A stretch of DNA of 64,000 nt from Deltaproteobacteria bacterium Ga0077539 (lineage in GTDB: Bacteria; Myxococcota_A; Polyangia; Polyangiales; Ga0077539). Position 1 is the stretch's first letter. The number at the start of each line of letters is the position of its first letter. Shown here in pieces: positions 59,462-61,524 of this stretch. The notes below the pieces were generated by a model that made no database searches, was not told the origin of the DNA, and worked only from the letters and a program-made list of their open reading frames with translations. The DNA lies in the NCBI GenBank assembly GCA_001465015.1, contig LNEO01000197.1, positions 31,937 to 95,936 of the forward strand, given 5' to 3'. The translations under genes were made by a program, and so were the position numbers.

Positions 59462-60451
59462 GTGAAAAAGTGCATTCGCGTCCTTGCTCTCGCGGGCGCT
59501 GCGTCGCTCGTGACCCCTGCCGCTCTCGCGCAGAGCGCTTCATCGGCCGGAGCCCCAGCGCCGACCCAAGGCGCAGCCGACCCCGCTGCGACGAGCACCA
59601 CGAGCACTCCGAGCGCGCCGGCCACGGATGGTACGGCGAACAACGCGATGTCCGACAACGCGCGGCTCAACGCGGCTGCGACCAACCCGGACAACCTCCC
59701 CGCTGGCGATCCCAACCGCATGCTCATGCGCGAGGTGGGCGCGACCTACAGCCTCGGATGGCGCTTCTGGTACCAGAGCGTTCCTGGGTTCATCGTCGGG
59801 CTCTTCGCGAAGGTGCTCGACGGCTGGGGAGGAGGCGGCGGCGTGGCGACCGGGCCTGAGTTCGTCTATCGCAACGGCGCGGTCGAGATCATGCTCGGCC
59901 TGCAATACGCTGGCTACTACGCGGGCTACGGCACGTTGCACGGACTCAACGAGCCGGTCACCGCGGCCGAGCAGCTGAAAGTCGACCTCTGGTCGATCCA
60001 GCTCACGTCCCACTTCATGTACGGGATCCGAGCGAATCGCTTCTTCGAGTTTCAGATCGGCGCGGGGATCGGCGCCGGTGGCATGGGTGGCACGCTCAAC
60101 CGCTACCAGGCGTACCCGATCGGGGATGGCCGCTTCGCCGCATGCGCGCAGAACTCCGCGAACTCGATGGCGCCCGGCATGATGGCCGCGAGCGACTCGG
60201 AGCCCTGCAACCAGCGCGTCAACAATCACTTCGCGATGAACGTCGACGCGCAGGGCCGCGGCACCGGCGGATACGCCGAGAACAACTGGGTCGGGACGGG
60301 AGGCGGCTTCGTTCCGCTGATCATTCCGTGGCTGTCGTTGCCGCACATGGCGTTTCACATTCGCCCGCACCGCAACTTCGACTTTCGTATCGAAGGCGGC
60401 TACTCGTTGATCGGCTTCTACGGCGGCGGAACAGCGCACTACGTGTTCTGA
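59462..60451 (+). CDS. Secreted probable outer-membrane beta-barrel protein
   Basis: A 329-residue exported protein from GTG 59462 after GAGGAG. The signal peptide KKCIRVLALAGAASLVTPAALA is followed by an Ala/Thr/Ser-rich linker (STTSTPSAPATDGTANNA). The rest has alternating aromatic strands (AVEIMLGLQYAGYYAGYG; SIQLTSHFMYGIRANRFFEF; NFDFRIEGGYSLIGFYGG) and ends in YVF, the terminal aromatic typical of outer-membrane barrels. No family name. The divergent neighbour is the CAP-domain gene. Confidence 0.7.
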   Translation: MKKCIRVLALAGAASLVTPAALAQSASSAGAPAPTQGAADPAATSTTSTPSAPATDGTANNAMSDNARLNAAATNPDNLPAGDPNRMLMREVGATYSLGWRFWYQSVPGFIVGLFAKVLDGWGGGGGVATGPEFVYRNGAVEIMLGLQYAGYYAGYGTLHGLNEPVTAAEQLKVDLWSIQLTSHFMYGIRANRFFEFQIGAGIGAGGMGGTLNRYQAYPIGDGRFAACAQNSANSMAPGMMAASDSEPCNQRVNNHFAMNVDAQGRGTGGYAENNWVGTGGGFVPLIIPWLSLPHMAFHIRPHRNFDFRIEGGYSLIGFYGGGTAHYVF

Positions 60452-60764
60452 GCGACTCGCTTCGGGGGGGTCGACTCATCGGGTGGGACGGGCGAGAGGT
60501 GCGCGGCGCACGCTCGGCGTTCTGACAACCGTGTGCTGGGCGCTCTGCGGTCTGTTGCGCGGCGCAGCGACAGCGATGTCAGACTTCGCGAGGCGACCGG
60601 GGCGAGGCGCGGCGGCCACGGCGGCGCGAATCCGCGGTTTCTCCGCAGGATCAACGCCGACGTCCGAGACCCACCCCGCTCGGCACGATGGTTGCGAAGG
60701 ATAGCATCCGGTCGCTTCCCGACCCGGTCACCCACCGGTGAGGCTGAGAGTGGCGGCTCTCTCC

Positions 60765-61073
60765 TCACGAAACGGGCGCTTGCTTCGCTTCGCTCCTTGG
60801 ATCTGCGCTTTCTTCGAGCGCTCTCTTGCTCCTCGCTTCCTTTGATCGAAGGGCCCTTCGATCCGCTTCGCTCAACTTCTTCGAATGCTTGTGAGTGTTC
60901 TCTTCGTAGCCTGACTTCACCGATCGTTCTCGTCCAGCCGGTGAACTTACGAGTGTAGGCCTTTTGTTCCTTCGGTGAAACGCCCGACGGCGTCTGACGC
61001 TTCCCGTAAGATCCTTCAACGGCTGGGTGTGTGACAGCAACGTCCCACCCGGCCGTTGGCCTTTCTCCGCCAC
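60765..61073 (-). CDS. Candidate small basic protein in the low-GC island
   Basis: A 102-residue ORF with a GTG start at 61073 and GAGG nine bases upstream. The C-terminal half is Lys/Arg/Glu-rich and helix-like (YEENTHKHSKKLSEADRRAL; RSKEARSKRALEES). Codon usage is unlike the GC-rich neighbours. A second ORF in another minus frame covers the same bases and also reads plausibly near its centre, so one frame may be a shadow or the locus may be frameshifted. Low confidence. Confidence 0.25.
   Translation of the reverse strand: MAEKGQRPGGTLLSHTQPLKDLTGSVRRRRAFHRRNKRPTLVSSPAGRERSVKSGYEENTHKHSKKLSEADRRALRSKEARSKRALEESADPRSEAKQAPVS
60844..60863. repeat. Perfect 20-bp palindrome
   Basis: GATCGAAGGGCCCTTCGATC is its own reverse complement and sits in the low-GC island. 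It could form a hairpin in RNA or bind a dimeric protein. Confidence 0.85.
61017..61058 (+). terminator. Strong stem-loop followed by a pyrimidine tract
   Basis: CAACGGCTGGGTG pairs with CACCCGGCCGTTG over 13 positions (one G-U wobble), loop 16 bases, followed by GCCTTTCT. This looks terminator-like on the plus strand, though no plus-strand gene ends just before it except the barrel gene 565 bases upstream. Confidence 0.45.
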
Positions 61074-61119
61074 TCAACGGCCTCGATTCGTGGCTGATTG
61101 GGGTATCCTCCCCCCCATC

Positions 61120-61524
61120 GTGACAGCAGCGTCGCAGTTTCGATTCGCGCTCGCGCTCCTCGCCGGCCTCCTCGTTGGATGTGCCAACCACGGCGAGCAG
61201 CTCGCGCGCGCCGAAGCCCATTTTCAGCAGAACCGCTATCGGACTGCCCTGTCGAACCTCGAAGACCTCGAGATGCACCGGGCTGGCCTGTCAGCAGGTG
61301 AGCGTGTTCGCTACGACATTGCCCGCGGAATGGCGCATCTCCGGCTCGAGCAGCCCCTCCACGCCCGCTACTGGCTCGCGCTCGCGCGCGAAGAGGCTGC
61401 CAACGACCCGACCGCGCTCACCCGCGCCATGCGCGACGAGATCGAGCGCGTCATCGTGGTCACCGACCACCTCGCGCAGCTCAACCCGCCGTCGGACGCA
61501 GCCGTCGGCGACGCGTCGCGCTGA
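61120..61524 (+). CDS. TPR-like lipoprotein
   Basis: A 134-residue lipoprotein from GTG 61120. The signal FRFALALLAGLLVGCANHGE has lipobox LVGC. The rest is a short pair or trio of helices (QLARAEAHFQQNRYRTALSN and VRYDIARGMAHLRLEQPLHA) with TPR-like spacing. It may be an outer-membrane assembly or scaffold component. The track ORF start at 61027 adds residues without signal character. Confidence 0.65.
   Translation: MTAASQFRFALALLAGLLVGCANHGEQLARAEAHFQQNRYRTALSNLEDLEMHRAGLSAGERVRYDIARGMAHLRLEQPLHARYWLALAREEAANDPTALTRAMRDEIERVIVVTDHLAQLNPPSDAAVGDASR

Follow-up and report, generated by a model that had tools for sequence, protein, structure and literature searches.

The window analysed here is a stretch of 64 kb, and the island under study occupies positions 60452-61119 (668 bases) of it. 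The island is intergenic, being bounded on the left by the stop codon (60451) of an ORF of 329 AA (59462-60451, plus strand) and on the right by the likely GTG start codon (61120) of an ORF of 134 AA (61120-61524, plus strand). The product of the upstream gene bears a signal peptide and is a probable outer-membrane protein, and the downstream gene is lipoprotein-like; Pfam searches with either gene gave no match. A previous sequence-only reading had described the island as a lower-GC, structured region and a possible undescribed RNA. Its compositional claims were confirmed: the GC content per 100 nt drops to 0.50-0.51 near 60876, which is the minimum across the 64 kb, and the reported pyrimidine bias of the strand corresponds to an AT skew of about -0.42 over 60700-60999. 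The 20-bp perfect palindrome (60844-60863) and the 13-pair stem-loop with a pyrimidine tail (61017-61029 paired with 61046-61058, including one G-U pair, and the tail CCTTTCTCC) are likewise present as described. The coordinates of the island proved too wide for the RNA and were narrowed to a predicted RNA at ~60707-61062 and a regulatory region at ~60520-60706. A σ54 promoter, three 5' hairpins, an upstream dyad and an attachment site had not been part of that reading.

Conservation and distribution

Conservation beyond the strain, which the sequence-only reading had named, along with a transcript, as deciding about its RNA, was found in three further genomes of the family: the region 60681-61058 is conserved in two congeners (G001, contig JAEUKI010000052.1, and G002, contig JAAFIF010000017.1) and in one member of another genus (G006, contig JAUXYJ010000054.1). 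A DNA search of 57 relatives gave a match of 81% over ~540 bases in G001, a match in part in G002 and 25 identical bases in G006. When the loci were read, the element was located directly after the 329-AA gene or its homolog in four of four genomes, with an identity of the homologs in G001, G002 and G006 of 67-84%. The comparison comprises four sequences only, three of which are close. A covariance model (R1) covering the first 190 bases scored 203, 200, 188 and 157 bits in these genomes. The distribution of the predicted RNA appears narrow, because R1 reached at most ~24 bits elsewhere among the genomes searched (184 from the order, 379 from the phylum). Covariance matches of 20-24 bits in other families were short or restricted to the palindrome and, hence, were not accepted. 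In the other eight or so genomes of the family the RNA was not found, nor was it at their upstream-gene loci. A Rhodobacter match to a two-motif pattern (L033) lacked the flanking GATC and GAG and was regarded as chance. Against Rfam (6S, RNase P, SRP, tmRNA and 4200 others), no family scored above the gathering cut-off, and ARAGORN gave no tRNA or tmRNA match on the island, and the sequence-only reading had seen no likeness to tmRNA, 6S, SRP or RNase P by eye.

Predicted promoter, transcript and structure

The conserved block opens with CGGCACGATGGTTGCG (60681-60696, plus strand; GG-N10-GC), a putative σ54 -24/-12 promoter which starts ~230 bp past the stop codon of the upstream gene and is identical in G001 and G002. 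Bases 5' of the block vary freely among the genomes. The σ54 -24/-12 consensus is TGGCACG-N4-TTGCW, which CGGCACGATGGTTGCG fits at 10 of 12 positions. The counterpart in G006, TGGCACGGCGATTGAA, fits at 11 of 12 positions, but has an A in place of the usually fixed C at -12 (TTGA, not TTGC); GG-N10-GC is exact in three genomes and reads GG-N10-GA in G006. This TTGA is a weakness of the σ54 assignment. For the core GGCAC-N5-TTGC, the chance expectation is ~0.005 (both strands, 668 bases, even composition). The gene rpoN is present in all four genomes, and a scan for σ70 promoters found none. Taking the -12 GC as the reference, a transcript would start 12 nt after it, at ~60707.

Upstream of this block, the dyad CGACAGCGATGTCAGA (60568-60583, plus strand; YGACA-N4-TGTCAGA) constitutes a candidate site for an enhancer-binding protein, and its centre lies ~131 bp ahead of the predicted start. 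Within the dyad lies ATGTCAGA, which is the only 8-mer on either strand common to all four upstream regions. From the beginning of the dyad to the promoter block there are 113 bp in three genomes; in G006 the distance is 81 bp, shorter by three helical turns. Elsewhere in these genomes the dyad recurs only a few times, and none of those copies precedes a good σ54 site. Judged from sequence and position, the dyad upstream of the RNA makes a good candidate for the site of the activator. About 50 bp farther upstream, TCTGACA (60521-60527) is the reverse complement of the dyad half TGTCAGA; it occurs in G001 too and is possibly a second activator half-site.

A noncoding RNA of ~356 nt is predicted on the plus strand (60707-61062), conserved and without an open frame, the 3' end of which is placed by a terminator-like hairpin. 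Starting from the predicted start, three adjacent hairpins were obtained in four of four sequences, each folded singly. H1 (60710-60724, plus strand; GGTCG-CTTCC-CGACC) was obtained in the four single-genome folds and by hand pairing. H2 (60725-60737, plus strand; CGGT-CACCC-ACCG) was also found by folding and has compensatory changes in G006 (CAGC/GCTG), whilst H3 (60738-60768, plus strand) has such changes in G002 and G006. The H3 segment GAGTGGCGGCTC is invariant in all four genomes, and the loop region GAGUGGCGGCUC (GAG-UGGCGG-CUC) is invariant, too. In our hand alignment, on which the stronger count of compensatory changes rests, the pairing of H2 and H3 survives two-sided changes in G002 or G006. 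In the model-fitted alignment, three pairs are changed on both sides, a count reached by 40 of 500 shuffles (the score was reached by 11 of 500), and pairing is maintained in 86% of cells compared to 28-48% in slid controls. Covariation in the model-fitted alignment is modest and, with four sequences, is taken as support, not as proof. Folding energy by itself is weak evidence (z between -1.3 and -4.5), and the reverse complement folds equally well. In the 3' domain, a hairpin TTCACCG...CGGTGAA (60915-60946, plus strand) was detected as an inverted repeat in G001 and by RNAalifold on the three congeners; its arm sequences differ in G002. An outer helix proposed by RNAalifold for the four-genome alignment was dropped, since the 5' arm of this helix falls within the promoter and precedes the predicted start. 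Taken as predictions, both promoter and structure are supported by the comparison.

The stretch 60775-60843 (plus strand) is CU-rich and G-poor and contains repeated GCUUC. In the RNA of the three congeners, GCTTC is present in 6-9 copies, which none of 150 shuffles reached. It is absent in G006, where CTTA is found six times instead; 5 of 1000 shuffles reached this number for a motif that was picked after looking. The stretch probably serves as a binding surface. It is followed by the palindrome GATCGAAGGGCCCTTCGATC (60844-60863, strandless), which is invariant in four of four genomes and in G006 sits inside the 25 identical bases. No other perfect palindrome of ≥ 20 bp exists in the 64-kb window, and none arose when the 1.5 kb around this one were shuffled 400 times at the dinucleotide level. 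In the RNA, the palindrome would give a stem of 7 bp closed by GGGCCC, a self-complementary loop through which two RNA molecules could pair. The idea of a dispersed palindrome was rejected, because in G001 (C5) and G003 (C49) the matching sequence is coding; their frame belongs to what we take to be a TonB-type receptor containing LEGPFDP.

Terminator-like hairpin and inserted elements

The hairpin CAACGGCTGGGTG...CACCCGGCCGTTG (61017-61058, plus strand) was found in the folds, by RNAalifold and as an inverted repeat. Its 3' stem has 9-13 pairs, two of which are changed on both sides among the congeners. The U-tract following it is weak in the three congeners, and the corresponding position of G006 is taken by a strong canonical hairpin with TTTTT after it. 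The terminator loop and 3' arm also form the core of an attachment site, which in the window is empty and present as the single copy CAACGTCCCACCCGGCCGT (61038-61056, plus strand). In G001, CAACGTCCCACCTGGCCGT (19 bp) is identical at both ends of an insertion, as is CAACGTCCTACCTGGCCG (18 bp) in G002, and the two copies agree also at the base that distinguishes the species. In G001 (element L098:56-13252), 13.2 kb lie between the RNA and the lipoprotein-like gene. In G002 (L099/L024) they are found on two contigs with an overlap of 126 bases, over which we summed a distance of ~18.7 kb. Because the insertions split the RNA from the lipoprotein-like gene in G001 and G002, this gene is outside the RNA unit. 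According to the folds, the terminator hairpin would be whole again after insertion, as it refolds at the left end in both genomes. Judged from the duplicated cores, the terminator-like hairpin is an attachment site for phage-like elements, and the window represents the empty site.

Each element carries a tyrosine recombinase ~110-170 bp away from the right att copy, which matches Phage_integrase above the cut-off as well as phrog_1. Further genes encode a Prim-Pol primase, a VapE-type helicase, a baseplate J protein and a possible tape measure protein; by virtue of these genes and the integrase, the inserted elements are classified as phage-like. Of 28 loci with related integrases in the order (L109-L138), at least 17 have the integrase gene in convergent orientation to the 3' end of a tRNA or tmRNA, which suggests that this integrase family favours RNA genes; one related integrase in the window's own genome (G000:C171, L111) adjoins tRNA-Glu. 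A misfit is the location of the integrase at the far end from the RNA, whereas in the relatives with tRNA or tmRNA sites it adjoins the intact RNA gene. The core is quasi-symmetric at the right end (GCCAACGTC-CCACCTG-GCCGTTGGC), therefore, its use in the opposite orientation is conceivable. The same att core was not found with related integrases elsewhere, and viral contigs contained only distant integrases.

Some further observations were made around this site. In both elements (L024:2388-4217; L098 right end), the integrase frame lacks a stop ahead of the att core and continues, in phase, into the lipoprotein-like gene of the host; with the element in circular form, it would enter the element's other end. 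This may be coincidental, or integration may alter the C-terminus of the integrase. A 17-nt near-repeat (88%; GTGACAGCAACGTCCCA and GTGACAGCAGCGTCGCA) is shared between the terminator loop (61031-61047) and the beginning of the downstream coding sequence (61120-61136). In the congeners, conservation extends to the stretch 61057-61119 ahead of the lipoprotein-like gene; it includes GGGGTATCC, possibly this gene's own promoter.

Interpretation and alternative explanations

The most likely reading of these sequence data is a trans-acting sRNA that depends on σ54 and an enhancer-binding protein and belongs to no listed family. The undescribed structured RNA suggested before is upheld by conservation in three more genomes, compensatory changes in helices, the lack of a reading frame and of an Rfam family, and the promoter-like block at the upstream edge. 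We regard it as rather probable that the locus is a stand-alone gene for a regulatory noncoding RNA on the plus strand, which is driven by σ54, acts in trans by titration and has a terminator used by phage-like elements. An activated enhancer-binding protein would bind the dyad (60568-60583) and remodel the σ54 polymerase at 60681-60696, giving a transcript from ~60707 to the hairpin ending at 61058. We infer that this transcript folds into the three 5' hairpins, with H3 showing UGGCGG, an exposed CU-rich stretch, the palindromic hairpin, through which two copies of the RNA could pair, and the terminator-like stem. It would act in trans without Hfq by titrating an RNA-binding protein or mRNAs via the CUUC repeats (CUUA in G006) and the open loop. 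Separately, phage-like elements would integrate at the terminator loop and 3' arm and thereby restore the 3' end of the RNA. A search for Hfq in the four genomes did not find it, therefore, a partner of the CrcZ or Qrr type is excluded in that exact form. A more far-reaching proposal, namely a new myxobacterial σ54 RNA family which dimerizes via a GGGCCC kissing loop of its invariant palindrome, titrates an RNA-binding protein in hosts lacking Hfq and offers its terminator as a dedicated landing site for one lineage of phage-like elements, is doubtful; if it were true, insertion could alter the RNA 3' end or read-through.

Several known systems resemble the proposed σ54-dependent RNA in part. 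Like Pxr of Myxococcus xanthus, which has its own σ54 promoter with an upstream enhancer region and several stem-loops, the predicted RNA is myxobacterial and intergenic, would start from a putative σ54 promoter of its own with a candidate enhancer site upstream, would form several stem-loops and occurs in a host without Hfq (PMC5568312, PMC5684412). Pxr is ~108 nt long, is confined to Cystobacterineae and adjoins its own activator gene (PMC5568312, PMC5684412), whereas the RNA described here has ~356 nt, a palindrome and an attachment site. The neighbours, i.e. the 329-AA membrane-type protein and the lipoprotein-like gene, are unlike the pxr setting with its nla19-type activator and NADH dehydrogenase. 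CrcZ and CrcY of Pseudomonas are likewise long, have a σ54 promoter like the one predicted here, are under an NtrC-type activator and have a titrating role to which the repeated, putatively single-stranded motifs found here would fit (PMC8871633). CrcZ sequesters Hfq/Crc (PMC8871633); here, no Hfq was found in the four genomes, the repeats differ and homology is not claimed. The Qrr RNAs of Vibrio (Qrr1, PMC10162802) are σ54-dependent, trans-acting sRNAs with upstream sites for enhancer-binding proteins, as is proposed for the RNA here, but they are shorter, work through Hfq-assisted base pairing and have no sequence relation to the present RNA. Concerning the insertions, prophage sites in tRNA, tmRNA and sRNA genes show the same combination of a tyrosine integrase, a short core duplication and a restored RNA 3' end, and sRNA genes are given as 17% of the prophage integration sites of S. 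enterica (PMC5502288). The present case differs in that the core comprises the terminator loop and 3' arm and the integrase is away from the RNA.

That the region is a DNA-level control region or UTR is unlikely. The σ54 promoter would then drive the lipoprotein-like gene through a long leader, for which the window and G006 have a suitable arrangement with the downstream gene on the same strand directly past the island; the 13.2 kb and ~18.7 kb between both in G001 and G002, as well as the terminator-like hairpin closing the RNA in four of four genomes, argue against it. Nor is the RNA simply the 3' UTR of the upstream gene, because a promoter-like block of its own lies ~230 bp past the stop codon of that gene. 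It also seems improbable that the conserved features are mainly DNA sites, with a palindromic protein-binding site (60844-60863), a phage site in a bidirectional terminator and incidental transcription. The invariance of the palindrome exceeds the needs of a hairpin, the attachment site is real and the two strands fold with about equal stability, all of which would agree with such sites. However, pairing in H1-H3 is kept through changed bases, the conserved stretch has the σ54 block at its start and a hairpin at its end, and the palindrome is not dispersed, its other matches in relatives being coding sequence.

Far less probable is a strongly diverged housekeeping RNA (6S, RNase P, tmRNA, SRP) or a copy of Pxr. 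Pxr is likewise a σ54-driven myxobacterial sRNA and has three stem-loops (PMC5568312), but the pxr positions 13-33 and 48-111, known from the primers given in PMC5568312, scored within the range of shuffles, and Rfam searches with relaxed filters and E up to 10 gave only chance matches (human lncRNA, CRISPR). Hardly any credence is given to a minus-strand gene for a small protein. The small basic ORF noted by the sequence-only reading does exist (60765-61073, minus strand, 102 AA) and, besides the window, is partly open in G001, but its conservation was not found: the minus strand has 3-4 stops per frame in G002 and 7-8 in G006, insertions are not multiples of three, and GC-rich genomes yield such ORFs by chance. 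Coding on either strand was rejected, since no frame is conserved through the relatives.

The proposed σ54-dependent RNA, as far as sequence comparison can tell, is a real, previously undescribed RNA gene of a known kind with an informative integration site. Myxobacterial regulatory RNAs are poorly known, Pxr being the main studied case, and the myxobacteria are without Hfq. If another family of myxobacteria has a second, unrelated σ54-linked RNA, the coupling of enhancer-protein signalling to RNA control would seem to recur in the group. The locus offers a defined predicted transcript, a promoter and a candidate activator site, and the attachment site provides independent evidence for an RNA gene as well as a natural case of an integrase using a terminator hairpin.
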